64,000 nt of DNA from Moniliella sp. 'wahieum' (lineage: Eukaryota > Basidiomycota > Moniliellomycetes > Moniliellales > Moniliellaceae), in the NCBI GenBank assembly GCA_003971905.1, contig RSEE01000136.1, forward strand, positions 79,501 to 143,500. The letters are read 5' to 3'. Made by a program: the position numbers and the translations under genes. Of this stretch, positions 13,305 to 60,465 are shown in pieces. The notes below the pieces were generated by a model that was not told where the DNA came from, did no database searches, and saw nothing but the letters and a program-made list of their open reading frames with translations. The first letter of the stretch is position 1. Each line of letters starts with the position of its first letter.

Positions 13305-14137
13305 CATACCTTTCCATGGCGCTGTTGCAGCCACCGTAGTTAGCGCATAGTCCGGCAGACTGTGGAGGTGGGTTGGTCTGACAAGAAGTAGATGGCATGG
13401 ATCACAGGATTGCTTCGGTAGGTCCACGAACTAATACTCCCTCCATACCCATACTATACCCCTACAGCGGCGTCCGACAGCTACGCGACCAACGTCGGCG
13501 ACGACGACAAACTGGGAGAGGGGCGGGCGGGCGTGGCGGGTTGCGGCGTAGCAGCCGAACGTACCTACTTACTTCGTTTTTCTGCTGTGGAACCTGGTCG
13601 GCGGCAAGGGCTGCCTGGATGCTGGGGCCAGCACCTGCTAACGCGCAACCGCGTGAAGGAGCACACGGGCGCACGTGACCAACTCAGGCTAGCCTGCAGC
13701 TTGAAGCTTGCTTGAATATTGAATGTTCAAGTTGAACGTTGAACGTTGCAATTGCAGCTTGGTCTCTATTACTAACGCAAGGACAATGCAGCAGCACGCA
13801 GCATGCAGGGTGGCACGCAGATGCTGAGTGGAAATGACGTCAACGCACCCGCCTCGGCTACGCCGGCCCACACCGCCGCCATGCCCCCCTGCGCGGACGT
13901 AGCGGGGCGAGGCTGGCACACCCATCGACACTGCGCTGCTGCCCTCCTCTGGCGTCCGTGCACGACGGCAACAGCAACCTGCGGCAACCCGGTGCTGCCC
14001 GGTGATTAATGATTTCAGCGCTTTCAATTCAAGCTTCAGCTGAAGCCCTCCCCCCTTCTCTTCTCCTCTTGCCTTCCCCTCGCCTGCCTGCCTTCCTACC
14101 ACCACCGCCTTCCTGTGCTCCCAACCCCGCTCCCATC
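13305..14137. other. Intergenic region upstream of SOD2
   Basis: No gene recognised. It includes a heptamer array at 13703-13751. The last 110 bases before the SOD2 ATG are pyrimidine-rich (CCTTCC/CTTCCC), as is common in fungal promoters. Confidence 0.5.
13703..13751. repeat. 7-nt period array (GAAGCTT to GTTGAAC)
   Basis: Successive units drift from GAAGCTT through TATTGAA and TGTTCAA to GTTGAAC, GTTGAAC, GTTGCAA. One junction is 6 nt; the rest are 7. Non-coding. Confidence 0.75.
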
Positions 14138-14892
14138 ATGATTGGCACCACCCTTACGCGCACTGCCTCCGTGCTGCCCGCACCGCCGTCCCGGCTGGTG
14201 TGCGCGCCAAGCACACCCTCCCCGACCTGGACTATGACTTTGGCGCGCTGGAGCCCTTCATCAGTGCCGAGATTATGGAGACGCACCACAACAAGCACCA
14301 CCAGACGTATGTCACCAACCTGAATGTGGCCGAGGAGAAGCTGCACGATGCAGTGGCCAAGAATGACATTGCGGCGACGATTGCGCTCCAGGGCGCACTC
14401 AAGTTCAATGGCGGTGGCCACATTAACCACTCGCTCTTTTGGAAGAACCTGGCGCCGGCAGGCAAGGGCGGTGGAGAGCTCCCCGAGGGTGGTAAGTTGG
14501 CTGCGGCGATCAGCAAGGACTTTGGCTCGCTCGACAAGCTCCAGTCCCAGTTCAATGCCGCGCTGGCTGGTATCCAGGGCTCGGGATGGGGTTGGCTGGG
14601 ATACAACAAGGCCACGGGCGAACTGGAGATCCTCACCACTGCCAACCAGGATCCTCTCTTGACCCACGTGCCGTTGGTGGGCATTGATGCTTGGGAGCAT
14701 GCGTACTACCTCCAGTACAAGAACGTCAAGGCCGACTACTTCAAGGCGATCTGGTACGTCTGGAATCGAATCGAATCGAATCCCTCTCTCCCTTGTGCTT
14801 ATCAATGGGACACACAAAGGTACTGACACTGACGGCTTTGCAGGAGCGTTGTGAACTGGAAGGAAGCTGAGGCCCGCCTTACGGCGGCCTAA
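14138..14892 (+). CDS. SOD2: Mitochondrial manganese superoxide dismutase
   Basis: Converts superoxide to hydrogen peroxide and oxygen in the mitochondrial matrix. The mature domain starts at [16 protein letters not shown] (about 14206). Metal ligands are visible: the His in [13 protein letters not shown], the His in [12 protein letters not shown], and the Asp and His in [23 protein letters not shown] is of the Mn-type. A 90-bp intron (14754-14843, GTACGT...CAG) joins KAIW to [15 protein letters not shown], giving the stop at 14892. The ATG at 14138 ([14 protein letters not shown]) gives a presequence-like leader, but it is one base out of frame with the mature domain between about 14175 and 14190, so a base is probably missing there. 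Length is normal for the family. Confidence 0.95.
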
Positions 14893-15110
14893 GTATGCAT
14901 CTTGGCCCAATAGCTTTGGTAGGTGACATGCAGATCTAAGATCTAAGCCCCCATGCCTGTCCACGGCTGTATTTTTTCTCGGGATATAATAGTTGTCAAC
15001 GAACAGGTCTCTCGGGACACAGCAGAACTTGGGTGGGGGTGGTAGACGAGAGGAACATACTGTCGTTTTCTTCGGGAGCAGCTGTGCAAACCATTTCAAC
15101 GGAGTCAAAG

Positions 15111-15120
15111 AAAAAAAAAA
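15111..15120 (-). terminator. RNA polymerase III T-run terminator of the tRNA
   Basis: Ten consecutive A on the plus strand give T10 on the minus strand, about 20 nt beyond the tRNA 3' end. Confidence 0.8.
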
Positions 15121-15139
15121 TAAGGACGCCATGTCGGCT

Positions 15140-15220
15140 CGAACGACGCAGGGGTCGAACCTGCAACCTCCTGATTACAACCAGTCGTAGTCAGACGCGC
15201 TACCATTGCGCCAGCCGTCC
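15140..15220 (-). tRNA. tRNA-Arg(ACG) with a 9-nt intron
   Basis: The minus strand folds into a full cloverleaf: acceptor GGACGGC/GTCGTTC with G discriminator, D-stem GCGC/GCGC, anticodon stem TCTGA/TCAGG, T-arm GCAGG-TTCGACC-CCTGC. With the intron at the canonical 37/38 position the anticodon loop is CTACGA|A, anticodon ACG, and the intron is CTGGTTGTA. TGGCGCAATGG, GCGTCTGACTACG and the G discriminator match eukaryotic tRNA-Arg(ACG). A poly-T terminator follows. Removing the 9 nt in another register would leave a Thr-like loop CTTGTAA; I consider Arg correct. Confidence 0.85.
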
Positions 15221-15548
15221 TTGATATGGGGCTAGGGGCGGAACAGGTGTGCCCCCCGCAACTGCCATGCGGAATGTGGCGGAATTTCCTGGGGTACCCC
15301 ACAACTGGCCTCGTCGCCTGATTAGTCTTAGTGGCGCGATGGTAGGATGAGCCTATTAGCCAGGCCTGCTAGCCTCTGGCCTCGGATCTGGCCAGGGTGA
15401 GTACTGAGTGTGGGGTGGGTGTCCATTCATCCATTCATCCATTCACCCATTCATCCATTCATCCATCATCGTACCATCCCCCCACCGCCTGCGCGCCCCC
15501 GCTCTCCTTTTCCCAGCACTCTTTTCCCCTCTCACCCGTTGGCATACA

Positions 15549-16108: not shown

Positions 16109-16674
16109 ACCAGCTTCGTGGCTCATGTTTTCTCACCTTCGATGCTACCACTCCGTGGAGAGGATGCAGGTGTTTTGAATGAAGATATGCTTCATGTTTG
16201 CCTTAAAAGTAAATGTGGTTTCCGGGTCTTCACTGGGAGTGGGATTGTCCTCGACACGCGCAGCAGGAAAAGTGTTGGCACTGGCACTGGCACTGGCACT
16301 GGCACTGGCACTGGCACTGGCACTGGCACTGGCACTGGCACTGGCACTGGCACTGGCACTGGCACTGGCACTGGCACTGGAACTGGCAATGACGCATACA
16401 CTGGCAAGCGGGTGAGCAGGTGAGCTCACCTTTGGTCTTGCCTGTATCCATTTACCCGGGCTTGGCGATCCTTCTGCTATGATTCCCTTAGGGTTCACGC
16501 TCCCTTCCTTATATGAGTCTGTGTGGGTCCATGTTGGGGACAGACTACTGGTCTGTGCCAAACACACGCTGGCCTCCTGGTACATATAGCCCTACAGCTC
16601 AAGGCAAAGGGAGAGGCGGGGGGGAAATCATATCCCTGCTGGAATTGAATATTGACCGAGGCTCATGCCATGCA
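16109..16674. other. Convergent intergenic region with hexamer microsatellite
   Basis: The 3' ends of the Dap1-like gene and the complex I gene face each other here. The only structure seen is the long GGCACT hexamer run. Confidence 0.6.
16276..16386. repeat. Hexamer microsatellite (TGGCAC)n, about 18 copies
   Basis: An almost perfect run of TGGCAC units occupies about 110 bases and ends with AACTGG variants. All six frames are open through it, so open frames here are meaningless. Confidence 0.97.
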
Positions 16675-18198
16675 TTAACGGTCCACCTCGCCGAACACCA
16701 AGTCCATCGTCCCGATGATGGCCACCATATCAGCGACATCGTGGTGACGGGAAATCATATCCGCACCAGCGAGATGAAGGAACCCAGGGGCACGAATTCG
16801 GCAGCGGTAGGGCCGGTTGGTGCCATCCGAGACAAGATAGACGCCCATTTCCCCCTTAGGCGCTTCGATCGCCGCATACGTCTCACCCGGAGGGACATTG
16901 AAGTTTTGCGAGAAGAACTTGAAGTGGTGAATCAGGCTCTCCATACTTTCCTTCATGTTAGCACGCGGGGGGGCAGTGAGTTTGTGGTCATCCACCTTGA
17001 CTTGCCCGGGGGGCATCTTGTTGATGCACTGCTCAATGATCCGCAACGACTGCCGCATCTCCTCCACCCGGCACAGATAACGGTCAAAGCAATCGCCATT
17101 CTTGCCGACCGGTACCTCAAAGTCCACCTCATCAAACTTTTCGTACGGCTGGCTCTTGCGAAGGTCCCATGGAATGCCGCTCCCGCGCAGCATGGGCCCA
17201 CTAAAGCCATAGTTCAATGCCTGATCGGCCGTGACCCGACCAATGCCCACCGTACGCAGCTGCCAGATCCGGTTGCCCGTCACCACCTCTTCCACTTCGT
17301 CCAGGCGCGAGCTAAACTGCGATGCCCAGACATGAATGTCGTCCAGCAGACCAACCGGGAGGTCAAATGCGACGCCACCAGGCCGGAAGTAAGCAGCGTG
17401 CAAGCGAGCACCACAAACCCGCTCATAAAACTCCATGAGCTTCTCACGTTCCTCAAACCCCCACAAGAATGGCGTCAGACCACCAACGTCCATCACGTGG
17501 GACAGGACCGCCATCAAGTGATTGTTCAGTCGCGAAATTTCCGAGTAGAGAGTACGAATCCACTTGGCCCGCTCCGGCACTTCAATGTTGAGCAACTTCT
17601 CCACCGCCCGGACGTAGCACAGCTCGTTGGTCATGGCCGACGAGTAATCCAGACGATCAAAGTAGGGCATAGCTTGGGTGTAGTTCTTGTACTCGATCAG
17701 TTTCTCTGTCCCGCGGTGCAACAGCCCAACGTGCGGGTCAGCACGCAGAATCTCCTCTCCGTTGAGCTCGAGGATGAGACGCAAGACACCGTGCGCAGCC
17801 GGGTGCTGCGGACCAAAGTTGATGGTAAAGTGGCGCATGTTGGCCTCTTTGCGCGAACTGGCCTCCTTGTAGATCGCATTCGACATCTCGATCGACGCGC
17901 GCAGTACGATCCGGTCGCCGTACGGGTCGTGCTCGACCTTGGTAGGGGTGGTGATGACGGGAATGCGCTTGTCAAAGAACCCATGCTCCAGACGATGCGG
18001 GTTGGCACTGCCGGGGGGGACCTCGTACTTGGGCAGGTCCTCCTCGCCGTTGGCGTTGTTGGCGTGGGCGTGGGCGTTGGCGTTGGCGGCGCAGACGGAG
18101 GAGGAGAAGCTGCGTGGGGCACAGAGGCGGGCAGAGGCAAAGGGACCGCGGACCGGGGCAGCCGCACGCAGCGCGCCGGCGAGCAGGTGGGGGCGCAT
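16675..18198 (-). CDS. NDUFS2: NADH:ubiquinone oxidoreductase 49-kDa subunit (complex I)
   Basis: Core subunit of mitochondrial complex I that lines the quinone site, equivalent to bacterial NuoD. The single intact frame has 507 codons. It begins with an Arg/Ala/Ser-rich mitochondrial presequence ([15 protein letters not shown]..., about 50 residues), then [74 protein letters not shown], and the C-terminal block of the family, [38 protein letters not shown]. The ATG at 18198 is chosen because it starts the presequence; the frame is open further upstream without similarity. The typical Val-Ser after FDRLDY reads Ser-Ser here. The gene has no introns and no frame break, unlike most neighbours. 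Confidence 0.97.
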
Positions 18199-20658
18199 GG
18201 GCAGCGGCAAGAGACGGGACGCGGTGGGGAGGTGGAGGGGCTGGCTTGCCGGTGGACTGGGGACTGGGGGACTGGCGCTGGCGCAGGGACGGGGCGGCGC
18301 CGCTTGCTTGTGCTCGCACGCCCATCGAGCGGCGCTGCATCGGCATGGCTGCCCAGCTGAACATTCAATCTCGCATCCTCTGCACTCCTCCCACTGGCTC
18401 CGCGCCCGCCCGATTATTAATGGCCCCCCGCAGTCCGCCCCCCCAATTCCGCCCCATTCCATCCATCATGCATCATGCATCAACGATCAACTACCAACCA
18501 TCCCGCTCCACACACGCACAAGACCGCATCATTCGCTTCCGTTTCCCTTGCTGGCTCGCAGCAGGGAAAACAGCCGTGAGGGAGGTGGGGTTGGCTTCCA
18601 CCCTGGCTGCGCTTCCGCCATCAGGGAATGCATGGCCACACTCAGAGCTTACGGAGCCTAGAGACCATCAATCGACTGCACCCGCGAGGTTACTCGACGG
18701 CCGCTATGTCCTCCTCCGACTGACTTGCGCAGTGGCTGCCCTCGCCTTTTCTTACTCGTCCTGCAGTGAAGGAACTTCGCTTTGGATGTCAAGTACATTC
18801 GTTCGGACTGTATGGAATGGATACCTATAATCCAGAGGGAAGAGAGGCAATCGCATGGTGTACAACGCATGATGTGTGTAAGGGAGACAAGGGATTCAAG
18901 GAAGATCTATAACAGGGTCAGCCTCGTATATGTGTGAGCCCCGTCACTCCCACAGGTCGGCTTGAAGCCTTTGGGCCTCGATAGGGCCCAGACGAAATTG
19001 GCGAGGTTCTGGTAGCTTCCAACACCACCCGCCTTAGTTGATTTGTATATGATGCCCTCGGCGCCATCGCCGGTACCTTCTCTCTCGAGCATTTCTACCC
19101 CATTCTCCCAGAGCTCGGAACACTTAGCCTCACAGTGGTCCCCTCTCTCGACCGTTCCTGTGCCCCCTCGCGCTCCCACGCCTATAGAGAGTACACTATG
19201 TGCACTTACACCAACAGCATACTGCAAAAATCCAATGTGCCCGAGTCCCCCCAGCTTCGCGTAGTCCCGATTTACCCGGACCTCAATCTCGTTTCGGCTG
19301 TTCATACACAGCCAATATGAAGACCCTCTGCTTTTCCCACAGCGACTCGAAGCACAACCACTGACGTTCTACCGTACGGTCCCTCCTCTGGCTGGCTCGC
19401 ATCACCGGCCCTGACCTGCGTTATGAGGTTCGCGCCGCCTTTGTCGGGCCTCAGGGAGCGCGGTAGCAACTGTGAGTGGCACCTCAAAACTAATTGACCT
19501 CATCTCTTCATCGACCTTGATAACCAAAGAGTATGGTTCCACCTTCCCCAGCTCTATTGCACGGGTCCGCATCACGTGTGCCACGCGCCACGCGCCCTAC
19601 ATCAGTCCTCAAGAAGCTTGAGCTTGAAGTCTGAGATCTGAAGCATCCATCTCAAGCTTCTTTCTACAGTGAGCCTAGTGGGCGGGGGAGTAAGGGCGAA
19701 GCAGGGAAGTCAGGTGTCACATACGTCGCAGTCACCTGTCAGAGTTCCACTTGCGTTGAAGCTTGAAGAGTGGCAAGACGCCAGTTAAAATTAACCCCGG
19801 ATGAACGCTTCGCATCTTAGATCTTGGACACCATCCATCATCCATCAGCATCATCCGTCAGACTCCCCCCCCCCGCGCATTCCAGCAGCCAGACGTGTAA
19901 GACCGAGACCAAGTAACCTTCCAGCCAGAGCCTCACTACCATTTTGGTCGGCCACAACAAGCCATCGGTGTTTGTGCGTCCTCACTGGCAGCAGCTGTAG
20001 TACATCCTCTAGTCCTGTGGGCCAGCTGAGATGCCCACCATCAAGAGACTACGTTGGTTGCGGAGGCGCTAGTATATATCAGAGAAGAGACCATCCGCAC
20101 CCACCTCTCCTTTCTTTCTCCACCAGCAGTTCCTCCGATACCGTCGTCTTGGCCCGCGCCTCAACACCTCACAGCGTACGTGCTGGACTGGTCACTGTCG
20201 TTGGCGCCGTCGCCTTTCGACAGCTGGACACAGCTGCAACCACACTGGCTTGATTCTGCAGTACCCCGTCCGACTGTGACACCAATCGCCGAGAGACTAT
20301 AGGTGCTATCGTAGGGCGTGGGGTACACATGGCATCATTGTCACGGGGTAAGCATGTTGGAGCCCACTGGGAGGACTCCAAACAAAATATAGCACCGTGG
20401 ACCATGGTATACCTCCATCCCAATGAGGAAATGTGTGGGTTGGGGGGAGGGTGGGTGAGAGGTGAGAGTGGGAAGAAGAAGACAAAAAAGAAAAAGAAGA
20501 AAAAGAAGAAAAGAAGAAGAAAAGGATCCATAACGATGAGATATCCACCACAAAATTGGTAATCTGCGAAGCCCCTTGTCCTCCTCATCTAGAGGGGATC
20601 GAGGGCAGGGGATGAACGAACAAGCGAAAAAAGCAGAGGTCGAAGAAAAGACAACAGG

Positions 20659-20690
<32 letters not shown>

Positions 20691-23257: not shown

Positions 23258-24657
23258 TCGTCCAGCGAATGGAAAGGCACGAGAGAGGCGATAAGAGGGA
23301 AGGCAGGATGGGAACGGGGCGGGGTGCAGGCAAGGAGGGGGATGGGGATGGGGATGGCGATGGCGATGGCGAGCTAGCAGCTAGCGGCAACTTTGAGCGT
23401 CGAGCGAGTGTTGCGATGAGCGTGGTGACGGGATGGGGGATGGCAGTGGGTGTGGAGGGAGGGGGGGTACGGGCCAGCCGTAGGTGCACCAGCCAGGAGA
23501 AGGTGGTAGGGAGCGAGAGGGGAAAGCAGGCAAGGGAGAGGGGTGGGAGGGTATATGGACAGAGTGATGGTGGTGGACACGAACATTCATTGTGACATGG
23601 CCGGCTACAAAGGCTGTGAAGAAGGCCGGCGGAAGTGACGTTGGCATATGAGGGAAGTCGAGACGGAGAGCGAAGCCTGGCCAAGCCTACGATGCAGGGC
23701 GTGCCGCTTCGGCTGATTCAGTGGGTGGCGAATGGCTGCGCCTATGCCACTCGTCACTTGCAATGTGAGAGAGTGTGTGTAAGTCATCCACAGTCACAAT
23801 AGGCTGGCGGCACAGAGAGCAATAATGGAGTGGCGGCGCCAAGGTACGACGGCCATGGCGCCGGCTTGAGCGCAAATAGCGCCTAAGCGGTGGAACAGGA
23901 TGTGGCAGCCGCACGAGTAAGCTCCGTGCTGGGTGCTGAGGCTCAGCGCTGGGTGGCTCAGCCTCAACGCAACGCGCCCCGCTGCTCTCAGCGCGTGACT
24001 GGGGAGCGCGCCCGGGATCAGATCTCAGATCTCACAAGCCAGCAAGACAGCCGAGGCTCAGCCAAGCGCTCCGCGAGTGCCCAACCAACCCCACCCACCC
24101 CACCCAACCCAACCCGATTTACACCAGACGCACGCAAAGACAATTCAACGCAACACCACCACACCCAACGGGTTGCACATCTATGCTCTCTGCACATACA
24201 GCCAACCAGCGTACCTCCCCACCTACGGCCCCTCTTGCTCGCGCCCTGTCAGCCCAGTGCCGAGAGCGAGGGGGGCAGAGCGGCGATGCGCCCGGCCACA
24301 CGAAGGATACAAGGCCAGCAGACGAGGGGACGTTTTCGACGTGCAAATCCATGCCCCCCCACCGCACCAGCTGAGTGCCGTGTGCCTGGCACCCCCCCAC
24401 GCGTGCAGTGCCCTCCTGTGCCGCGGCCCGTGCCCACCGTACCAGGGCCCAATGTGGAGCAGCGCCGATCCGGCCTGGCCAACGCTATGTTCCGCACGGC
24501 AGACAGCGCTACTGCCGCGCAGCTTGTGCAGCGCTGGACTGGGTGCCACCGGTGACCGCCACGCTGTCACGCCTCCCGCGCCACAACGCACGCGGAATCT
24601 GTAACACTCGCCGTTGGAGCGCGTACTTATGCACCCTCTTGTACTGCCCCGGTCGCA

Positions 24658-24788: not shown

Positions 24789-24830
24789 CATCATCCATCA
24801 TGCATCATCCATCATCCATCAGCCATCCTC
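24789..24830. repeat. 7-nt period array, CATCATC type
   Basis: Six units in register: CATCATC, CATCATG, CATCATC, CATCATC, CATCAGC, CATCCTC. Confidence 0.9.
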
Positions 24831-26090
24831 CACTTGCACAATCTTAATCATCAATCAGGCGTCCGCGTCACCGGTCACCACCCCGACGACCTGGGTTCCC
24901 ATACCAATGCTCCTGTTCGCGCCACCTCCAACGACGTCCACCCTGATCAGGCTGAGCTGAGGCTCAGCGCTGAGGCAGGTAGTGTGGAGGCAAACATATT
25001 GGTTCCGCACGTTCAACACGTTCAACCCATACACCTGTCCTGGTGGATCCTATCTGCCCCTGGCCGTCTATTTGGGGTACTCCGAATTGCTCTGCCGAAG
25101 GTTTTTTGGGTTTGTGCGTGGAGGTCCCGGTCCGTTACGCTGTCCCCGTCTCGCGTCATGTTATGCATCCTGTCTTGGACGGCCATAAGTGCAAAAGGGT
25201 CGGGCGATGCAAGTGAGATCTGAGAGCCAAGTACCTAGTACGAAAGGAAGCCAAGGATGCACTGGTCGAGGGAGGGAGAAAGGATCGGCGAAAAGCAGTG
25301 AGCTAGTGAGCTAGTGAGACCTGAGATTAAGATCAGAGAAGATGTACCTGATTAGCTAATAGGGCCGTGACAGCAAGCAGGACAAAGGAATTGGGGCCTG
25401 CTGTGTTGTGGCGACGTCCTGGTCCACTCGGCTACGAAGACCGCCATGGATGATGTGGCGTTTAGACAGTAGCGTAGACGATCGATTCGGGGCGAGAGAC
25501 AGACGTTGGTGGTACGAAGCAAGACGCGAGGGCTATAGGAGAAGGCTACTAGTCATTGGCTTAGGCACGCGCGCATCAGCAATCTTCGGAGCCCGCGGAG
25601 ACTCGGGGCTTGTGAGGCCGGAAGTGCACCAGGATCGGTGAAGCGAGTCACCGTCACAACAGTGTGGCCTGGTGTAGCCTGCCGTCGCACCCCGCCAATT
25701 TGCATCCCAGTCCAAAGCGCGAGCGACCCATGTCGGCCAGGGAAGAATGGAGCGGAACCGCAGCGTGGGTTTGAATGTGGCAGCAAACCGGGGTGGCAAC
25801 AAGTACGCATCTCCTCGCTCCGTCCGCGCCCAACGGAAAGCGACTACGGGCGACTATGTCCGAAGACTACCCAGTCCTATACCAGACCCTTCCCAGCCCC
25901 ACTCGCCGCCCGTTGCTTCCCTTCGCTGGTCTGTCTGTCTGTCCGGATGTACCATTCGAAGTCCCAATAAGGTTAGGGCTTGGCGCTGACTTGGATGTAA
26001 AGTCCGACAGACGCACAGCACTGCCATTGGCGGGACGCGGCGGCTGTTCTGGTCCTTGTCGGCCACATGTGTCATCCTTGTCACATGCCT

Positions 26091-26100: not shown

Positions 26101-26409
26101 ACTGTATTTGGCCGGTGGGGAAGCGTGAGTACGTGTGACGTGTGAGACTCACTCACTCGGTTCTGAGTGCCAGTGGGGGAGGGGAGCGGAGCAGAGGGGG
26201 CGCGCGGCCGGGTGTTGATGGCATCGTTACTGCCCAGCTGCCGGCGCCACCGTTTCTCAAACGCCACTCTCTGCGCGCCCCTCCACTTGGCAGTACCGAG
26301 GACCAGACGACGGCGATTCAGAGGTGCTTTTGCTGAAGGGTGTGGATGTTAAGGGCCCAACAGCCAGCGGTCTGCATGCCCAGGAATGCCCTCCCCATCG
26401 CAGCCACCA

Positions 26410-26470
26410 CTTCAAGCTTTAAGCTTCAAGTTCAAGCTTCAAGCTTCAAGTTGAAGCTTCAACCTTCCAG
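26410..26470. repeat. 7-nt period array, CTTCAAG type
   Basis: CTTCAAG, CTTTAAG, CTTCAAG, (6-nt TTCAAG), CTTCAAG, CTTCAAG, (6-nt TTGAAG), CTTCAAC, CTTCCAG. Units contain the AAGCTT palindrome across junctions. Confidence 0.9.
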
Positions 26471-27514
26471 TTCAATCGTTTCCAGTGTCGCATACTAACT
26501 TCAAACCTCAAGTTTCAAGCTCTTCAAGCTGTTTATACGAATTCGGTGTTCTGACAAGCCTCAGTTCCTCCTCCACAGTCGCTTCAAACCCCCGATTGGT
26601 TTCCATTGAATTGGAGGATCAGACCGATCAGGGCAGCAGCTGGCACGAGGCACAGGCTGCCAGCCAAAGCGAGGCCAGATGCGCGCCCAGCGCCAGCACC
26701 CAGCGCCTAGGAACCACTGCTAGGAACTGTACCTACTTGCGCTTGGTGGGCGTTTTGAACGCTGGCGCTGACCCTCATGTGTTGGCTGCTGGGTTGGAGA
26801 TGTCAATAAAAGCCCCAGGCTGTGCATGATGCATGACCTGCATGATGGTTCGATGTTTGCTGATGGGTGCTAAGCTAATGCATAATGCGTAATGGATGAT
26901 GGCGTTGATGGCTTGGGAGTGGTTGGTGGGCAGGCCCGACGCGTGTTGTACGTAGTGCTTGGTGGCACCAAGTGGCTGAAGCGTCGAGTGGAGCAAAGAA
27001 GAGGAGTAGGCGGTGCTGTGTGGATGCGAGAAGCGCAAGGCAGCAGGCACCCAGCGGAATGGGCGCGCGGCGGAATGGCGTGGGAGCGAGCGAGTGGCGC
27101 GCAGAGATAGACGGGGCGGCGCTCGATAAGCACCGCCCCAGTGCGACGCACCCGTGTGGCGTGGCGTCGCCCCCAAGCACAAGAACAAAGCACAAAGCAC
27201 ACCAGCACAGGCCGTGCTCAGCGCCACATCACCCATGCATCACCCTCCATCCCGTGCATCCTAGGTTGTGCGGACGCCTCAGTGTCGCAGATACCCTCCC
27301 ACGCGGGCAGTCGTGCGCTCGGTCGCCAGACGCTCCGCACCAGCCAGTGTGCGCCCCATGCATCCTGAGGCGTCTGGCGGTGTGAATCAGTCGCTACTCC
27401 GCCCGAGGGCTGGCAGGACAGGCAACACAAGCCCGCGTCGTTTCCATCTCCTCGCCGACGGGCTCGTCGGCCGCGACCATCCTCTTCTCCATCATCCTCC
27501 GCACCCACCTCCCC

Positions 27515-28037: not shown

Positions 28038-28069
<32 letters not shown>

Positions 28070-36386: not shown

Positions 36387-37139
36387 GTTGGCCCGTTGGA
36401 ACGACGCGGTCTTTGCTGCCTGGGCGTCCTTCTGTGCCTTGGTCCAACTGGGCCAGGCTGTTGCGTTTCATCGCACTACCAACCCCGTGTCCCGACCAAC
36501 CGTTTCCCTCTTGTTCGTTTTGGTGCAAGTGTGGTGTCGGGATTCCTGGTGACTATCACGAGCGCTGACAGTGGTGGAACTGGCTCGACTATGTCAACTT
36601 TCTCTTTTCATCAAACTCATCATTACCCTTATCAAATACATCCCCCAGGTTGCTCAACTACCATCGCAAATCAACACGAAGCTATCGAGTCGAAAACCTG
36701 TTTGCCGATCTCGGTGGAGGCATGTTATCCCTCGCTCAACTTGTACTCGATGCATTCATCGAGGGCGACTGGAGCGGCATCATGCATCACCGGCCATCCC
36801 GCCAAGCTGTATGTCATGATTTGTATTGTATCTTTGGTGAGAAACGTACGCTAACTTCGTCTTCCTGTTCTCTCGTTTGGTGGGATTGCTCTTACTGCGC
36901 TCGGCATGGACGTCATCTTGATTATTCAATGGGAAGCATACGACAAGAAGCCTGCCGGCTCTGTCCTGACCGACGAGAGGAAGCAAGCCCAGGTGAGGCC
37001 ACTGAACGAACGTCACTTCTTTTCGAACGTTCATAAATCCCTTCAGCCTTACCTCGACTCAATGCAGCTTGTACGGGTTCCGCATTCATCCGCCTCTCAT
37101 CGCCCGACGCTCATCGCCCACACCGTTCAACGCCTTTGA
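36387..37139 (+). CDS. Cystinosin-like PQ-loop transporter, C-terminal half only
   Basis: Cystinosin (yeast Ers1) exports cystine from the lysosome or vacuole with seven membrane helices. Only the second half is seen: WNDAVFAAWASFCALVQLGQAVAFH (about 36399), NWLDYVNFLF (about 36575), IKLIITLIKYIPQ with the PQ motif (about 36610), LLNYHRKSTRSYRVENLFADLGGGMLSLAQLVLD (about 36651), and FGGIALTALGMDVILIIQWEAYDKKP (about 36879). KST and the Gly-rich helix match the family. Introns: about 36811 (GTATGT donor, CTAAC branch) to about 36878, where the acceptor reads CG rather than AG, so a base is probably missing; and 36993-37046 (54 bp, GTGAGG...CAG). Stop at 37137-37139. Frame breaks occur near 36550 and 36600. 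The N-terminal half is absent from the window. Confidence 0.75.
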
Positions 37140-37360: not shown

Positions 37361-37902
37361 TCACTCGACGATCTTCAGCTCCATAGATCGGAAAGATGCA
37401 GCAACGCTTCGTGCAACGACCTCGAGTATCAAGTTGGTTTTCTTAGTGCTCCCTACACCCGCCATTTTGAGTCTGGTAATGCGGTAGATCTGCTTCGTGG
37501 TCACTGTGCCGGCTACCTCTCAGCGCCAGGCCCATGAGAAGACCCATTTTCGATTCCGGTCGCTTTATGAGGCAGCCAGCTCGCGTGATTTGTTGGTTAC
37601 AGCAGGCTGTGCAAATCATACTCATTTGCCCCACACCTACATTGCGCCGGCCCATCCCCCCATAAAGACCTTGACGGGGGGGAAGGGGATGTCGAGGAGG
37701 ATGTGGGCAGTGCGGGCATTGAACTGCTTGGCAAAACCAATGGCTTTCACGTCGTTGGATCAAGGCACGGGGCCCACGGGGGTCTGAGCCGAAGCTTTGC
37801 CAGCCGGCATGACCAAGCGACCCTCCTTGGTGGCCCAGCTGGGGGGCCTTCGGTTGGATCCCCACTGCCTGCCCTCGGCTCTTAGATCTTACGTGCCAAC
37901 AT
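37361..37902 (-). CDS. Mitochondrial large-subunit ribosomal protein uL11m, frame-broken
   Basis: uL11m forms the stalk base of the mitochondrial ribosome. Read on the minus strand in pieces: LVMPAGKASAQTPVGP (about 37820-37775), VKAIGFAKQFNARTAHILLDIPFP (about 37755-37685), SWLPHKATGIENGSSHGPGAE (about 37580-37525), GTVTTKQIYRITRLK (about 37510-37470), and the C-terminal ARSVAASFRSMELKIVE (about 37415-37364), stop at 37361. This order and spacing match L11. An intron probably lies between about 37640 and 37590 (GTAGGT donor). Insertions or deletions occur near 37765 and 37520 (a duplicated AG). The ATG at 37902 is the nearest plausible start but is not certain. The many breaks hide the gene from simple frame inspection. 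Confidence 0.8.
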
Positions 37903-40188: not shown

Positions 40189-40223
40189 GAATAGTGAAGC
40201 TTGAAGCTTGAAGCTTGAAGGGC
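40189..40223. repeat. 7-nt period array, GAAGCTT type
   Basis: GAATAGT, GAAGCTT, GAAGCTT, GAAGCTT, GAAGGGC in register; the unit holds the AAGCTT palindrome. Confidence 0.9.
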
Positions 40224-40378
40224 CATCTCTGTTACGTTGTTGCGCCACAGGGTGACTGGTGCGTTTCTGACCAAAGCTGGTCCCTTGACTCCCTCCTCAG
40301 ACGTAGGAGCTCCGATATTTTCTCATCGCTTATATCTTGCCTGGTCCGCTTCCAGGCCCAGGCGGAACTGGCTGCTTG

Positions 40379-40406
40379 CTTGAAGCTTGAAGCTTGAAGC
40401 TTGAGC
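40379..40406. repeat. 7-nt period array, CTTGAAG type
   Basis: CTTGAAG three times, then CTTGAGC. Same unit family as 40189-40223, 160 bases away. Confidence 0.9.
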
Positions 40407-41777
40407 TTGACCCCTGAAGCTTGGTACCCTGAGGCCTGAGAAGGGACTGAACGCGCCTTGGGCCGTAGTAGCTACTGGCCGGCTAAACGCACAAGCTTCC
40501 TGTGGCTCAATCGAGTGCACGGTGAGAAGGAGAAACGATGTCCGATGATGATCGATGATCAGGGAAAACGACATGCAAGGGCGACGACACCGACGCAAGG
40601 AGACGACACTGAGTACTGACGCAAGGGAGACAAGGGGATGCGCGCGCTCTGCTCGTCCGATCTCACCCGGCACGTACATGCTCGTGGAGATGCAGAGGGG
40701 TCGCCATGGGTCCAGCCTGGCTCACCGGTCACATGTCACGCACCATGCATCTCAGATCTCATGGCAGATGCATCCAGCGGCTTCTGGAGGGGAGTGCCAG
40801 CAGAGCAGGGGGTCAGCAGCTTCTACCGATCTATCCATCTCCCCCAGATCCCCCCCCCTTGCGCCCATGGGAGACAGGGAACGGAAAACGCGGCGGAGGT
40901 GGTGGGTCGCGTGGGCGTGGCCCTGTGTGGACTGGCAGGAGCAGGGCGGAGCAGGGCGGAGCCCGGAGGCCGTGGGACGACTGTTATTACGAGCCGCGTG
41001 AGGCCGAGGGCCTGAGGGTGAGTAGGTAGTGCACGCTCATTTCCGTTGCCCCCCCGACCCACACCAACCCACCATCTGATGGAAGAGCGACGTACCCCTT
41101 ACCTCGAGACTTGGAGAGTGAACCAGCAAGCACGCTGCACGCGAGCCCCTTGCACCAGTTGGCAACGTGTTGCATTTACTCGCTCGGCCGTCCCAGTGGG
41201 GAAAAGACAAATGATTGATGAGATACCCGTAACGAACAGTTCTTGACCATGGGTCACGAAGATGATGCTTGAGCTTGAAGGTCGGATGTGGGTCGGAGGG
41301 GTCGGACCGGCACTGTGGTCACTACTAGGGTCACTATTAGTACTGGTCACTGGGACCTGGCTTGGGCTGTGCGCTCGTTGAGCGTTGAGCCAGCCGCTGT
41401 GTTGGCATGTGGCTCTCAGATCGATGATCGATGATGGATGATCCGAGGGACCGATTGCCAACAGTTCCTCTCCATTGTGTGGATGTGTGATTGGTGTTCC
41501 ATGCTGTTTGTGGGAAGATGTGCAAGGCAACGCATGGGCAGTGTGGAATGCCGTGCCTATAGTACCTACTAGGAGGTGACTAAGTTGTGGCCCACGTCGT
41601 CTGCTCCGGCACCGAGCATCCCAGCGCACACATGTGCAAAACAATAGTCCGCATTAAAGTTTAGACGCCATCAATATACGTACCCCTGCACCATCCACAT
41701 CCGAGCGAGAGAGGCGGCAACGCGGCGCCCTGAGACGCAGGAATCAGACGCGTTATTGGCTGCGGTAAACACGGCCA

Positions 41778-41805
41778 GTCACTAGTTACTAGTTACTGGT
41801 TGCCA
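41778..41805. repeat. 7-nt period array, GTTACTA type
   Basis: GTCACTA, GTTACTA, GTTACTG, GTTGCCA in register; the ACTAGT palindrome spans unit junctions. Confidence 0.85.
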
Positions 41806-45120: not shown

Positions 45121-45972
45121 TCCGTGGGCGATGGGTATTATACAAATTCCTGATCGATCACTAGCACTGTTGATGCATCTCAATCTGGCGCAGCATGATG
45201 CATGACACCACTTTCTCATTCTTCCCTTGGTTCTTCCACTTTTTTCTTGATTATGGACACCGCAATTCGTCTTCTTTCACGGCCCTGTTGTTGCCTTTGC
45301 GGTTTTCCTCGCAAGAAGGTGCTGGAACGCTGCACCGGTACGATACCGTCCCTGAATAGGTTTTTTCCATTATATATGCCAACAAACCGTTTAAGGTTTC
45401 TATGCGTTGTTCCCAAACCAACCACCCCCCCCCCTCCTCTCCTTCCTAACGAGGGTGATCAGTAACCAAGCCCCTCCCACCCGCGCCCCCTCCGGGGGTT
45501 TTTATGAGAACCGAACCCATTGCATATAACTTTCTTTTTTGCTCTCAGAGTCAGACCCTGAAGCTCGAAATTGACCCTTTTTATTACCTGAGAGATGGCC
45601 ATCGATCAGGGTCGGTAACCGGTAAACCCTCACATAGCCCATACATGCAACTACGATAGCCTATTCTCCAGTGGTTGTGGTACAGATTGTGAAAAAAGAA
45701 CGGGGGAAGAGCACTCGGGCATCCTACGGGTTGCCTACAGGTATAAGGCGTGAAGGTCACGCGGTGAGCACCAGCTTTCTTCAGGGAACGTCGGAATACT
45801 ATAGGGGAGGAAACAGGAGAATGATAGGGGAGGCATGCAGACAGGGCAGCTGAGGTGGGTGACATGTGACATCTGCATAATTGGAGCGAGCAGCGGGATG
45901 CGTACTGATACTACTAACCTTCTGCGAGCGGAAGCGGAACTCTTTCGCCCCCGGTCAACGTGTGAGCTTCTA

Positions 45973-46073: not shown

Positions 46074-46101
46074 AACTAGTCACTAGTCACTAGTCACTCT
46101 A
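46074..46101. repeat. 7-nt period array, CACTAGT type
   Basis: AACTAGT, CACTAGT, CACTAGT, CACTCTA in register; unit contains the ACTAGT palindrome. Confidence 0.9.
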
Positions 46102-49803: not shown

Positions 49804-49845
49804 GATAATCGATAATCGATAATCGATCATGCATCAAGGATCATC
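49804..49845. repeat. 7-nt period array, GATAATC type
   Basis: GATAATC three times, then GATCATG, CATCAAG, GATCATC, all in register; the ATCGAT palindrome spans junctions. Confidence 0.9.
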
Positions 49846-50102
49846 TTGCCCTTTGCGTGTTCTTACAAAGCGCGCCGTCGAATGGGTCACTGCGTTTCAT
49901 TTCCCCCTTAGTCAATTGATGTTCTTGCTTAGCCTGTTAGCGTGCCAGTGAGCCGCGTTCAAGCTTCAAATTGGATGTCAAGATTCAATATTCAAGCTTC
50001 ACGTTTTGCGCATGCTCTTCTGTGTGCTGTGGAAGAATACACAACGTGCGGGGAAGACCATTCTTATAGGAATGGCTAATGGCCTGGGCGGGGGATCATC
50101 TC

Positions 50103-50158
50103 GATCATCGATCATCGATCATCGATCATCGACAATCGATCATGCATCAAACATCACA
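50103..50158. repeat. 7-nt period array, GATCATC type
   Basis: GATCATC four times, then GACAATC, GATCATG, CATCAAA, CATCACA, in register over 56 bases. Confidence 0.95.
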
Positions 50159-50312
50159 TGCACATCACATCGCATGCTCCACTCGCTGTGCCGGTACGTA
50201 CTTGTGGTGGTGGGGAACATCTCCGACGAGCAGTCTGCAGCAGAGATGCCGGCCGGGGGCCAGTCAATCGGTCTCCAGGAGCGGAAACGAGGTAGCGGTT
50301 AACCCGTAGCGC

Positions 50313-50333
50313 GCGTTACGCGTTACGCGTTAC
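50313..50333. repeat. 7-nt period array, GCGTTAC type
   Basis: Three perfect GCGTTAC copies. Confidence 0.85.
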
Positions 50334-50658
50334 GAGTCAAGCGAAGAGCGGGCCGTGGTGCGGACAGCCACAGGATACCAACCACCAGAAAAGGAGGACA
50401 GCAAAGGCGCTTTCCCGGCGCGCGCAGCGCCTGCTCTGATACGAACAGGTGTCTAGTGCCCCTACGTCTAAGCTACCGATATCACCCCCACGTCACAACC
50501 TGGATACTGAGTCAATACCGAGACTGAGCACTGAGTTGCAGAGTTGCAGTCGCGCCACCGAGTCACCGGCCGGCCACCGGCGGCCTGCCCTGGCCAATCA
50601 GATCAGGGCGGTTCCTGGCCCGTTGGGGTGTGGATGCTCCTGCGTCTGCTCCACCATC

Positions 50659-51636: not shown

Positions 51637-51660
51637 GTGAGTGCTGAGTACCGACTATGG

Positions 51661-52270: not shown

Positions 52271-52312
52271 TAGGCCGTAGGCCTTGGGCCTTGGGCCTTG
52301 GGCCTTTTAATT
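52271..52312. repeat. 7-nt period array, TGGGCCT type
   Basis: TAGGCCG, TAGGCCT, TGGGCCT, TGGGCCT, TGGGCCT, TTTAATT in register. Confidence 0.9.
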
Positions 52313-52856
52313 TTAACCCCAACCGCACAAGGCAGCCGGGTGAGTGAGCGTGTGGGGTATTCCTCATTCCGCCTTTCCCGCCCCATTGGCGGCGCACGGC
52401 GCGGGGTCACCCGGTCACCGGTCACCGACCGTCCAGTGGGGTCACTGACTCAGCGTGAGCTCCGAGAATGGCTGATCGGTGATGGCTGAGCTCAGCCGGC
52501 AGGCGGCAGCAGGCGGGCAGCATTCGGGCAGCACGCACCCAAACGACGCTCCGCCCGCCCGATCCACGCCGAGCGCCCCAGCCGCCCCGCGAGCACGGTT
52601 CTTGGTTCTGGGTTCTGGGTTGTCTCTGCCTCTGCCTCTGCCTCTGGGCGCACCACCACCGTGCAAGGACCCACTGTTGACCGTTGACGCATTGACGGCA
52701 GCCCCCCCGCTTAGATCAGCTCTGCTTCTGCTCCCTCAGGCCTCAGCTTCCCGAGCTTCGACGTACAGGCGTCCCTTGTTCTTTCTTGCTTGCTCTAGCG
52801 TGCTTTGTGCGTTTGCTTATTTTTTCCCTGCCACCACCATCCTTCCCCCGTGCCCA

Positions 52857-54318: not shown

Positions 54319-55239
54319 GCCACCGCGTGGCTTGCCCGTCGCCGCCTCCCCTTCCCGCGGTGGGAACGGGCGAGATGCATCAGGATTCACAAGGCTGTTT
54401 TTTGTCCCCAGGGGGATGGGGGGTCGGAGGGATGCAGGATACGTAGGACTAGGACTGATGCGGTAGAGGGCGGGAGGGGGACGATGCATGCTGCGGAATC
54501 AGCCTGATTAACCATTCCTCTCGTGGGCAATTTACAGCCGTTGCAGTGCGAGGCAAGGCCAGCCCTAAGCACTTAGCCTCGACTGGCTAACCCCAGTGAC
54601 TGTTATTTACCCCGCGCCACCTCTCTGTCGATTGACCGTGGCCGAGGCAGAGGCAGCTGGCAGAGCGGAACCGACGCAGCGGAAGACGGGGCAGGCAGGC
54701 AGGGTTGGAATTCAACATTCAAATGTTCAATGCTGAGCAGGTGGGGACCGAGGCACGGGGGCGTGTGGCGGTGGGGCAGGGGGCATGCGTGTTTGCCTCC
54801 ACGCGGCCAGATCCACATTGCTGCAGGTACAGTGATCGATGATCGTCCAGGGCGATGCTGGCGCTGTGCCGGCACAGCACTGGTGTTGTGGGTGTGGTGC
54901 TGGGCGGCGCACTGCTGCAGTGTCGCTCGCGCGCCCTCCACGCGTCGCTCGGCCTGCGGCTTGCCTGATGCGTGCTGGGTGATGATCTCGATGATCCACT
55001 CGGTGTGACAATGAAATTGAGCACTGCCTCTTCCAGCACACCCAGTACGTGCGACTCAGCGCAGCCGCCGCTCCATCTTCCCGTCCCTCTCGCCCGCTCC
55101 CCCACTGCCTTCGTGCCTCCATCTCCACCCCCACCGCCACCCCACCACCACTCCCACCCCCACCATGCTCCCGCCAAGGGCAAGGGCAAGGGCAACGCGC
55201 CCGCCAGCCGCATGACCGCCAGCCAGCTCTACACCCCAC
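54319..55239. other. Intergenic region, 0.9 kb
   Basis: No gene recognised before the acid phosphatase. TTCAAC/TTCAAATG motifs at 54709-54733 and a GATCGATGATC site at 54835-54846. Coding of the next gene may begin a little earlier, at an ATG at about 55212 that would need a one-base frame repair. Confidence 0.45.
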
Positions 55240-57607: not shown

Positions 57608-57656
57608 TGCGTCACGGTGCGGTCCGCGTTGCGGTTCGGTTGCTGTTTCGCCTGAT

Positions 57657-57721
57657 GTTGAGCCTGGTGTTGAGCCTGATGTTGAGCCTGGTGTTGAGCC
57701 TGGTGTTGAGCCTGGTGTTGA
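57657..57721. repeat. 12-nt minisatellite (GTTGAGCCTGGT)
   Basis: Five to six copies with a G/A alternation at one site. A frame through it reads Val-Glu-Pro-Gly/Asp, so it could be a C-terminal coding repeat if the phosphatase frame is wrong at its end, but I place it downstream of the stop. Confidence 0.9.
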
Positions 57722-58880
57722 GATCCCTTCCTTTTCATCCCTTTCCTTTCGCCTTTCGGTCTTTCCGTCCTTCCTCCATTCTCTAATCCATCTTGAGCAT
57801 ATGCCCCACGTGACACGGGACACAGGACAAAGGTACCCCCTACCCGTGCCAGGCATAGCGCTCCTCCGTTCCCGTAGTCCTAGTGCTTTGCTTTCCCTGT
57901 TCTCTACCTCCTTACCGGTTACCTCCCTCCTGCGTTCACTCGTTCCTGTACGTCTTCTCTTGCACTGGTGCCGTGTGGCATGTGGAACGAGAGAGTGGAG
58001 GTCGTGAGTAAGGCTGAGTACTAAGTACTGAGCGCATTGAGTCCCGAGAGTATAACTGAGTTTCAGTACCTGAGGACGAGGTGTGCCTCGAATGCCTACA
58101 GTAGACTCTTCCGTATCAATTTCCTGGTTGGGGTCGCTGCTTGCTACTCAGAGGTGCTCAGGACTCCGTGTTTACTCTGAGTTGACCAAGTTGAGCACCT
58201 TGGGTTCAGTAGTAGAAGCGTTGAAGCTTGAAGAGCTTGAAGGAGCCGCTCCGGTCAAGCGAGGTTCTTCCCAAGGTATCAGGTAGCTGGTAACTGGGAA
58301 CGGTAACCGGTACCGATGCTTGCGGGGATGATGTCATGCGAGGGGAGTAGCTAGTAGGGAAGAGCAGGATGGGTGATTCTGCAGTTAGAGGGTGGTTACT
58401 ATTATGGTTTTAGAGACTTGTGACAATGTGTGCTGTGACATGTGACGTGTGACAGAGTGGGTGCCCAAAGTCCCAGATGGCCACGCACGGGGCGGCACAA
58501 GCCCAGCAGCCCAGCGGTTGTGCCCTCGGTCGCGTGGGGGGGTTGTTGGAGGGGAGCTTGGAGTGGGTTTGAAATGCAATCAATCGCACACGAAGCACCA
58601 AGAGGGCAGTGCAGCGACAAACGACCAGCTACCCATCCCGAACCAGTGTACATGGACACGGACACCACACTAGCACCCAGGACTATACTCGCACTCGGTA
58701 CATTCGGTTGCTTCCATCCCAATCCCATGCACCATGTCCTTTCTCGATCGACGCGCTGCTCTCGGAGGCGCCACGCCATGCCCCCGGCGCCACGCTGCTC
58801 CGCTTGCCTAAACCGTAAACGGCTCAGCGTGCCCAGCGTCCAGCCGCCCAGCACTGCCCACCGTCGTTGGTCCAACGCGC

Positions 58881-58943
58881 CTAGTCACTAGACACTAGTC
58901 ACTATAGTCGCCCAGCGCCCACCTCCCAGTGCCCATCGCCCTT
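58881..58943. repeat. 7-nt period array, nine units, two unit families in one register
   Basis: CTAGTCA, CTAGACA, CTAGTCA, CTATAGT, CGCCCAG, CGCCCAC, CTCCCAG, TGCCCAT, CGCCCTT. The register is kept while the unit switches from CTAGTCA-like to CGCCCAG-like. Confidence 0.85.
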
Positions 58944-59482
58944 AGCAAAGCGCTCATCGATCATCATCGATCATCGCTCAGCGCTCATCCCAGACGGGCG
59001 GGAGAATTGCCAAGGCATAACCCCCACGGCTTCCCCCTTCCAAAGTGGCCAACCCTTGCTAACCGGGGGCTTCCTCTCTTGCCGAGTTTGGCTTGGTTCA
59101 GCGCTTACCTATAGAGTGCCAAGCCGCCTGCACCGCACTCGGCTGCACTGCCCGCTGCCCCCTCCAGCTCCGCTTCCACCCGGTCGATGCACCGCGTGTC
59201 CGCGAGCCCGAACGGGGCCCAAGGTAAGCTAGAGTAGTAGGAGTGATGGTGACACGTGAAAAAAAAAACAAGAACTCTGGCGTCAGTACGTCACCGTACC
59301 TCTCCGTAACTCCGTAGTACTCATTCCAGTACCCTCAGTCGGGGGTTCCCGCCATCTGTACGATAGCCTAGAGCGGATCGACGGCGGTCAGGGCCCAGGC
59401 CTGGCTCCGCCAGTCGTGGAGACTTCTCTAGAATGCTGAGCACGGCTGAGCCTCAGCCGCGCTCAACCCCGTGCCGGCCACG

Positions 59483-59560
59483 ATGGATCATGGAGATGAT
59501 CCGCTACAAATCACGACGCCCCCCAGCTGGATGGCAGCCGAGGCGGCGGCCATCGTGTTG
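59483..59560 (+). CDS. Candidate first exon of an unidentified gene
   Basis: ATG opens 26 codons (MDHGDDPLQITTPPSWMAAE...) ending exactly at a GTGAGT donor at 59561. The composition is protein-like, but I could not find a matching downstream exon; it may belong to the Pro/Ser-rich gene starting near 60466 or be chance. Confidence 0.25.
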
Positions 59561-60465
59561 GTGAGTACAATGTGGTGCGCGAGCAGGCAGCATGTAAGAG
59601 AATCATACAAACCCACCGATCCCAACGCCTCCCTGCTCCGGCACTGGCCTGCGGCCTTACTCGTAACTGCTGGGGACCGGAGACCGGTGACTGGTGACTG
59701 GTGACGTGCGGGCTGTGGCCAGGTGCCCCACACGTGCTGCGTTCATTCATTCTGCACCTGATCGATGATCGATGATCGGTGGTTACGTTACGGATGGCTG
59801 ATCGTCATGCATCCCAGATCCACCTAGGAAACGGCGTTCGCCGATCGCTCGCTGGTGCGCTGCCCCCGCGCGCCGCCGCCTGGGACCACTGCCGCCACGC
59901 CGCGCCCGCCCCCGCCACTGGCCACTGCTCTGACGCCAGCCACGCGCCCGCCCGGCACACCGCCCTGGCGCCCGACGCGTGCGGCCGCTGTGCAACGTGC
60001 GCAGAACCTCCCAGCAGCCATGGCACTCAGCTCGAGCAGCCCACTGCGCCGGCGCCCCGCCCGCACCGCACACCGCAGCACACTGCACCACACCCGCCGT
60101 TGCTCCGAACGCACAGCAACGCTCCCGCACTGCCGCACACGCACACACACTGCATGCATCTGCAGTGCATCATGCATCACCCCTCAGGAGGCCAAGAGCG
60201 CAGCACACGCACCGCGCCAGTGTGCGCATACGCTACATGCTGGCTGCTTGGCGCCCGCCGCCTGCCTCCGCTCTCCGCCGCTCGCTTCTTGGACGCTCCT
60301 CCTCTCCTCTCCTCTCCTCTCCCCTCCGCCCCCTCCCACCGCCACCGCCTCGCCGTTGCGCCGCGCCCCTCCCGCCCCCACGCCCCTCCTCGCCCCCGCC
60401 GTCGCCCGTGTGGGGCACCCCGCGACGCTGTTCGAGTCCTGGCTGCGACGCTCGACGGTGCTCCG
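59561..60465. other. Region upstream of the Pro/Ser-rich gene
   Basis: No certain gene. Long open frames exist on both strands because of high GC and CAC/CCG bias; none shows a family motif. Contains the 59675-59709 array, a GATCGATGATC run (59759-59777) and a CTCTCCTCT run (60298-60325). Confidence 0.4.
59675..59709. repeat. 7-nt period array, GACTGGT type
   Basis: GACCGGA, GACCGGT, GACTGGT, GACTGGT, GACGTGC in register, with stepwise single-base changes. Confidence 0.92.

Follow-up and report, generated by a model that had tools for sequence, protein, structure and literature searches.

Seven-base arrays in the non-coding DNA of a Moniliella genome as probable scars of a TNA-specific insertion mutation

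The birth of a tandem repeat from non-repeated DNA is usually credited to chance plus slippage. In prokaryotes, heptamer repeats such as the TAACTGA sets in Beggiatoaceae and cyanobacteria contain one fixed heptamer per set, in the part of the source drawn on here (PMC4679880). Ac/Ds excision in Candida leaves short deletions or palindromic P-nucleotide insertions (28 footprints among 128 revertants, of which two predominate), indicating, within the part of that report drawn on here, that short palindromic sequences are added during end joining in fungi (PMC5873905). Short-range template-switch events are described, in the portion of the account used here, as prevalent in great ape genomes (PMC7954356). 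Here we analyse a 64,000-nucleotide (nt) stretch of Moniliella sp. 'wahieum' (contig C136 positions 79501-143500, hereafter the window), taken from a genome of 69.5 Mb in 223 contigs, in which arrays of period 7 are built from many different units. About half of the sampled arrays appear to be covered by a single rule, and the arrays were probably left behind by an insertion mutation that recurs at a specific motif. We found no description of a TNA seven-base insertion rule in the literature searched, most subscription journals being outside its coverage.

Seven-base arrays and the rule they share

The main sample consisted of 264 kb, comprising the window and 20 loci of 10 kb, each from a different other contig. 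A home-made coding hidden Markov model (HMM) divided it into 93,761 coding, 95,286 ambiguous and 74,953 non-coding bases, a split that is approximate because the model misses some exons (the acyl-CoA dehydrogenase frame at 52479-54140 is covered in part only). Among the rows listed by Tandem Repeats Finder, at least 25 of period 7 with at least three copies, two of them overlapping, occur up to window position 50312, and 22 such rows lie inside 13703..59709, where a sequence-only reading of the window had noticed many arrays in a strict or nearly strict 7-nt register. Compared with one second-order Markov simulation, exact arrays of at least 2 copies numbered 169 vs 19 for period 7, 313 vs 55 for period 6, 40 vs 4 for period 8 and 30 vs 2 for period 9, while at least 2.5 copies were reached by 65 vs 0 arrays of period 7, 82 vs 1 of period 6 and 7 vs 0 of period 8. 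In the whole genome the pattern TGACTAGTGACTAGTGA had 639 matches and its reversed pattern 2, and TCAGATCTCAGA had 1229 vs 0. The earlier observation is confirmed, the seven-base arrays being real, genome-wide and, by the densities given next, mostly non-coding. From 186 array loci counted in the 264 kb, about 49,000 are extrapolated for the whole 69.5 Mb.

Per Mb, non-coding DNA contained 1174 period-7 arrays, ambiguous DNA 630 and coding DNA 224. The earlier statement that all of them lie between genes is correct for most arrays and fails for some, for example the one at 1401-1435, which sits in predicted coding DNA. The lag-7 check proposed with it, which we ran on the 264-kb sample with array counts set against the Markov simulation rather than dinucleotide shuffles, gave an autocorrelation peak confined to non-coding DNA (0.2821 at lag 7 vs 0.2672 at lag 8), coding DNA having no peak (0.2745 vs 0.2730).

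The rule is written TxA-NNN'N'-TxA, with x equal on both sides and a palindromic N4, and it takes in 448 of the 16,384 heptamers (2.7%). Outside predicted coding DNA, 74 of the 148 exact 7-bp tandem duplications in the 264 kb obeyed it. Sorted by palindrome centre, these 148 fell into 74 with T.A, two with C.G, none with G.C, none with A.T and 72 with none of these centres, and only 1 of the 21 exact duplications in predicted coding DNA was T.A-centred. The same preference emerged from a listing of 3-mer pairs, which omits distances divisible by three: TGA..TGA at distance 7 was top of the list (368 vs 119.5 expected) and TTA..TTA at that distance reached 67 vs 17.6, with no enrichment of TGA..TCA (ratio 0.67). 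The N4 in between was palindromic in 197 of 368 TGA-N4-TGA (z 35.9) and 34 of 67 TAA-N4-TAA (z 13.8), compared with a naive 1/16, in only 12 of 62 TGA-N4-TCA, and in 38 of 295 cases for CAT (z 4.5), the next-best of the 64 3-mers with strand pairs merged.

The units had previously been thought to share a period without sharing a sequence. This has to be replaced, as what they share is T-x-A together with a 4-bp palindrome that is expanded with T.A centres only. Among the 12 units named in the sequence-only reading, GAAGCTT, GATCATC, GATAATC, CACTAGT, GTTACTA and GCGTTAC belong to the grammar, TGTGACG, AGTACGG, TGGGCCT, GACTGGT and CGCCCAG are one base off it (as are about 31% of random 7-mers), and GAGCGTA does not fit. 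All 16 four-base palindromes are in use, and 43 of the 64 possible TxANN were found as 12-mers in the 264 kb. Prokaryotic heptamer repeats are alike in their period of 7, intergenic location and short direct arrays, but as far as described they repeat a fixed heptamer, whereas here nothing but TNA and symmetry defines the elements. Among 104 exact arrays of 15 nt or longer, grammar and non-grammar together, there were 64 different units, and loci at most 50 nt apart had the same orientation in 16 of 19 cases and differing palindromes in 17 of 19.

Of the 74 duplications outside coding DNA that do not obey the grammar, 32 (43%) are one substitution away from it, compared with 21.5% after letter permutation. 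The excess of period 7 over neighbouring periods is therefore in large part, though not wholly, due to the grammar class and probably to mutated descendants of it, and unrelated heptamer repeats remain. In the window, the 55 exact 7-bp tandem duplications comprise 24 of the grammar, 13 one substitution off and 18 unrelated.

The elementary product and the direction of change

Isolated elements were defined by having no adjoining TNA in register (n=144 in 304 kb). A two-base extension of the period was found on the left only in 51 of them, on the right only in 47, on both sides in 17 and on neither in 29; the one-sided flank match in 98 of 144 rejects independence (odds ratio 0.21, Fisher p 1.1e-5). 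The tract lengths of the grammar class peaked at 12 nt (13, 22, 63, 49 and 26 tracts for lengths 10 to 14), while other period-7 tracts fell steadily over the same lengths (3152, 1000, 365, 155 and 53). Both results indicate that the basic product is typically TxANN-N'N'-TxANN or its mirror image. A spacing requirement, which had been offered as one explanation of the period, is not needed and leaves both the shared x and the one-sided flank matches unexplained.

With predicted coding DNA masked (L033-L036 excepted), the spacer was complementary in 133 of 179 12-mers anchored by TCA, 134 of 190 by TGA, 27 of 33 by TTA and 20 of 31 by TAA. When anchors of 1-5 bases were scanned against complementary spacers of 1-4 bases, only the TNA 12-mer and re-readings of the same heptamers stood out. 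The re-readings reached z 25 (an anchor of 1 and a spacer of 3) and z 8.5 (an anchor of 5 and a spacer of 1), and no other combination went above the z of 7.8 obtained for AT at period 4. Direct repeats of T.A 5-mers numbered 433 at a spacer of 2, compared with 96, 94, 126 and 135 at spacers of 1, 3, 4 and 9. A minor 9-bp form, XXTxANN-N'N'-XXTxANN, had a complementary spacer in 24 of 54 repeats where 1/16 is expected; seven-base repeats with a spacer of 2 gave 32 matches vs 12 expected, some without TNA at that place. The T.A 12-mer test as a whole was positive in 250 of 361 pairs in this genome (947 per Mb, both strands counted), and in 9 of 106 (14 per Mb) in a bacterial control of 636 kb with the hit masked, made of 80 of the at least 120 bacterial stretches matched by a 19-mer. 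In that 19-mer scan, matches in several loci lay 21 bases apart, which suggests coding repeats.

The direction of change can be followed in a dispersed repeat, four copies of which were compared (window 70-493, L009 2663-3075, L013 5938-6309 and L034 7900-8290). Genome-wide, at least 40 places were scored for this repeat out of 213 first-look candidates, the others being 75-90% identical. The window copy contains two products:

348..359, plus strand: TTACT-AG-TTACT, an elementary product in the dispersed repeat; L009 and L013 have the empty TTACT
277..288, minus strand: TGAAG-CT-TGAAG, the other product of this repeat copy; the empty site of L009 is slightly diverged, and L013 has a 9-bp variant there

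At the first of these sites GTTACT is present once in L009 and L013, with a related single site in L034. A second insertion, TCTGA-GA-TCTGA, is found in L009; at that place the window has a single TCTGA, and L013, though much diverged, lacks the element. The third, GTTGA-AC-GTTGA, is found in L013, whereas the window and L009 each have one GTTGA. Each of these three insertions is thus confined to one copy and filled in no second, and at least one of the other copies shows the TxANN singly. The product at 277-288 is likely a fourth gain.

An empty-site search used 161 isolated 12-mers as queries, with array-selected loci and duplicate copies of the window or of its homologous contig C100 dropped; 53 had an alignable counterpart and 108 had none. 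The 10 counterparts in dispersed repeats comprised seven empty sites (three of them weak alignments), three of other size and no filled site. Among the 43 counterparts in homologous contigs nine were scored empty, three of which read as alignment offsets or as unclear. This asymmetry of empty and filled sites is not what slippage-driven contraction would produce, but the clean sites are few and belong mostly to one family. Gain is favoured over loss, and the elementary event is very probably a de novo 7-bp insertion in which five target bases are doubled around the reverse complement of two of them.

Two other possible sources of polarity were set aside. A repeat of about 160 bp with TG...CA ends (L033 6192-6352; C100 ~54,192-54,352) is present in at least 40 copies, five pairs of which are separated by 4.7-5.3 kb with both members pointing the same way, like the long terminal repeats of a retroelement. 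Alignment of 40 copies with the query gave no such 7-bp gains, the repeat being too young to be informative. Of four older homeologs of a complex I gene, two (L031, L032) were compared and their non-coding flanks could not be aligned.

These observations also bear on ordinary 7-nt replication slippage, of the kind invoked for prokaryotic heptanucleotide repeats, in which hairpin-forming units expand best. Copy-number differences between homologous contigs agree with it. By contrast, births from a single TxANN without a second copy (at a few clean loci), the unexpanded C.G, G.C and A.T centres and the lack of enrichment of single N'N'TxANN hairpins (0.075-0.082 vs 0.055-0.084 for other centres) make it an improbable origin of the arrays. 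Duplication of a hairpin heptamer was rejected, as the heptamer shows no enrichment in single copy and few of the isolated elements (17 of 144) are two-sided 14-mers. The pair of mechanisms suggested in the sequence-only reading can accordingly be separated: local templated duplication is supported, the 7-bp gains being copies of their target, while slippage with a 7-nt step fails for births because empty sites hold a single TxANN, palindromes are T.A only and tract lengths peak at 12.

Turnover between homologous contigs and the array loci of the window

Contig C100 is collinear with the window over 34.5 kb of alignment columns in nine blocks of 89-95% identity. Of 40 element loci found in either contig, 11 were scored identical, 11 were present in both but changed, 10 were in the window only and 8 in C100 only; one of the loci scored identical (41432) in fact differs, lying at a block edge, leaving 10 unchanged on reading. 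Judged from this alignment, turnover of the elements is fast, and several loci differ by exactly one unit, for example 15398 and 40608. Besides the two products above, elements and arrays of the window include the following:

10835..10852, plus strand: TCATGCA array (TGCA palindrome)
13731..13748, plus strand: GTTGAAC array (ACGT palindrome)
14932..14947, plus strand: AGATCTA array (TAA-GATC)
15398..15409, plus strand: TGAGT-AC-TGAGT; C100 has TGAGT alone
18464..18482, plus strand: TCATGCA array
24018..24034, plus strand: TCAGATC array; the same in C100
24708..24722, plus strand: TAAGCGC array
24789..24832, plus strand: ATCATCC/TCATGCA array, in part one base off grammar; C100 is 21 nt shorter
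26410..26475, plus strand: TTCAAGC array of about 10 units; C100 is internally different
36778..36789, minus strand: TGATG-CA-TGATG; C100 is empty
37880..37891, minus strand: TAAGA-TC-TAAGA; C100 is empty or near-empty
40195..40220, plus strand: TGAAGCT array
40378..40404, plus strand: GCTTGAA array
40608..40619, minus strand: TCAGT-AC-TCAGT; C100 is exactly 7 nt shorter
41419..41435, plus strand: TGATCGA array
41781..41797, plus strand: TTACTAG array; in C100 the second unit is different, with 7 nt fewer
45860..45871, plus strand: TGACA-TG-TGACA; C100 is empty
46075..46098, plus strand: TCACTAG array
49804..49827, plus strand: TAATCGA array
50101..50132, plus strand: TCATCGA array of 32 nt, the longest exact grammar tract of the window
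50312..50334, plus strand: TTACGCG array
52411..52427, plus strand: TCACCGG array
59759..59778, plus strand: TGATCGA array

Insertions and deletions between the window and C100 included 11 of 7 nt, 15 of 6 nt and 11 of 8 nt, and those of 7 nt do not all follow the rule (the one at 26362 is a plain duplication). This mixed spectrum indicates that the rule class is one contributor among many. Two 8-bp arrays, at 15422-15470 (TCCATTCA) and 25297-25318 (AGTGAGCT), each differ by 8 nt from C100, the latter resembling a variant form in which CTAG is flanked by a four-base anchor, TGAG. Larger presence/absence differences from C100 (~150 bp to 1.2 kb) were seen near 18534, 18969, 20277, 31902, 32158 and 36386. 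Long arrays of period 15 and period 6 (4914-5202, 5364-5487 and 16276-16388) lie in predicted coding DNA save for a few border bases, and a tRNA gene at 15140-15220 on the minus strand is the sole Rfam match at gathering level in the window.

The complex I 49 kDa gene (16675-18462, minus strand) has six copies: the window's own, one in C100 at 96% identity and four at 84-87%, on C29, C53, C58 and C60. These two tiers of identity suggest a polyploid or multi-haplotype assembly. The best PDB matches of the window's 49 kDa protein are complex I chains that we take to be of Chaetomium and Yarrowia type, which points to a probably fungal source.

The turnover weighs on the idea that the elements are maintained by selection, as binding sites, as arrays of stop codons in all frames or as hairpin elements in untranslated regions. 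Their non-coding location and their TGA/TAA anchors are in line with this, as is a slight excess of TGA on the strand of the neighbouring gene (97 on the same strand vs 71 on the opposite one, the 5' side contributing 64/49 and the 3' side 33/22; elements that lie between two genes are counted twice). However, at most 11 of 40 loci are unchanged between contigs of 89-95% identity, the use and covariation of all 16 palindromes go beyond any demand of a protein site, flank matches are mostly one-sided, and the palindromic spacer is common in TGA-N4-TGA and much less so in TGA-N4-TCA. We regard selection for such sites as very improbable. Stop-codon arrays in particular were rejected, as the reverse complements of TGA and TAA represent the same events and the palindromic spacers stay unexplained.

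A possible insertion process at TNA

A mutational process behind the arrays is well supported. One TxANN in non-coding DNA is converted to TxANN-N'N'-TxANN with a gain of 7 bp, the mirror event acting on N'N'TxA. Both copies in the product are again TxANN and the target is kept, so repeated hits can build 7-bp arrays, and recurrence in register would make them perfect. Slippage probably adds and removes units as well, including units that have since mutated, and selection probably purges insertions from exons, in view of their rarity there. If template switching or hairpin slippage acted alone, centres of A.T, G.C and C.G should be used as well, and for this reason we propose a staggered break that is made or bound by a factor recognising TNA, a motif with two-fold symmetry. 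One break end would then gain two bases from its own strand through hairpin opening two bases off the tip (P-nucleotides) or, alternatively, through a short two-base snap-back with A pairing with T across x, after which the filled, overlapping ends would be joined. The detail of hairpin or snap-back end joining is put forward tentatively; our best guess is that a break is made or bound at TNA and is then resolved by end joining or by a short bout of templated synthesis.

When topoisomerase II is trapped, an enzyme-made staggered break is filled and joined to leave a short duplication of defined size, as proposed here, although those duplications are of about 4 bp and are not known to have a palindromic joint or TNA. 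IS5/PIF-Harbinger elements make 3-bp TNA/TWA target duplications, which the TNA found here resembles. More generally, the elements could be footprints of cut-and-paste transposons, consisting of a target-site duplication and palindromic P-nucleotides from opened hairpins. The junction NN|N'N' is formally a P insertion of 2 nt, with a complementary spacer in 250 of 361 T.A pairs, and hAT-type Ac/Ds footprints are alike in joining a target duplication to a short palindromic addition, credited to end joining after hairpin opening; the palindromic P-nucleotide insertions left by Ac/Ds in Candida, in the part of the report drawn on here, also speak for it (PMC5873905). However, Ac/Ds leaves many products, whereas essentially one insertion product is found here (a five-base repeat with a two-base spacer, and a minor seven-base form; deletion products would be unrecognisable), with an obligatory TNA, no transposon seen and the extrapolated 49,000 loci to account for. 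A PF13359 profile search of the genome gave no match (the same search was positive in 1 of 14 control genomes), and a PF05699 search gave none in this or any control genome and so carries no weight. Transposon footprints are considered an unlikely source. Among specific forms, PIF/Harbinger footprints with TNA duplications were rejected because the flanking NN is derived from the target and PF13359 is not matched, and a Tc1-like footprint of a 4-bp target plus TxA because it predicts tracts that begin at N and finish at N', type (5,1), seen 3 times vs 36 of (0,4) and 28 of (2,6).

In a short-range template switch, a polymerase would copy N'N'T off the opposite strand and resume one base past the first T. 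The product is legal in four-point terms (point 4 before point 1), and the inverted copy adjoins its source, with ANN followed by N'N'T, as in the four-point events described, where a short inverted copy beside the source is followed by return to the original strand. Yet the generic form, as far as those descriptions go, needs no motif and varies in length, and any complementary pair would serve equally, whereas the elements here copy two bases, are anchored nearly always by TNA and reach about 947 per Mb with a strict motif and fixed length. A template switch is slightly less likely than transposon footprints to be the source. The insertions are thus somewhat like both, yet each fails in one tested feature, the product spectrum in the first case and freedom from a motif in the second.

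Several observations weigh against the insertion process proposed above. The clean polarity comes from few loci, mainly of one repeat family, and 74 of 148 exact 7-bp duplications outside coding DNA are not of the grammar class. Changes between the window and C100 carry no direction, and contraction by slippage would give the same picture. The 9-bp form is in frame and should be tolerated, yet only 1 of 24 lies in predicted coding DNA, which argues against frame-shift as the whole reason for depletion in exons. Exact arrays of at least 15 nt show no peak at 19 and 26 (4, 10, 11, 11, 8, 10 and 9 arrays for lengths 0 to 6 modulo 7), and the lengths thus give no support to array growth through repeats of the event alone. 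Adjoining different palindromes sharing one TGA occur in 7 of 79 TGA triples, about our own estimate for independent events. Finally, no break-repair model known to us accounts for the restriction to T.A.

With these points in mind, what was a vague 7-nt periodicity becomes an exact and testable mutation rule, from TxANN to TxANN-N'N'-TxANN, and the birth of tandem repeats can be read at single-base level, at a number of sites that extrapolates to tens of thousands. The insertions also represent natural markers of homologous contigs and repeat copies. The strict demand for TNA implies a specific enzyme and makes a biochemical search possible. It is conceivable, though we would not yet favour it, that a dedicated enzyme, such as a domesticated transposase or nuclease, cuts or binds TNA across non-coding DNA and that its product regenerates the target, as a self-renewing ratchet. 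If so, the TxANN-N'N'-TxANN marks and arrays, tens of thousands in number, would be the record of this ratchet, which would still be enlarging the intergenic DNA of this fungus by sevens.

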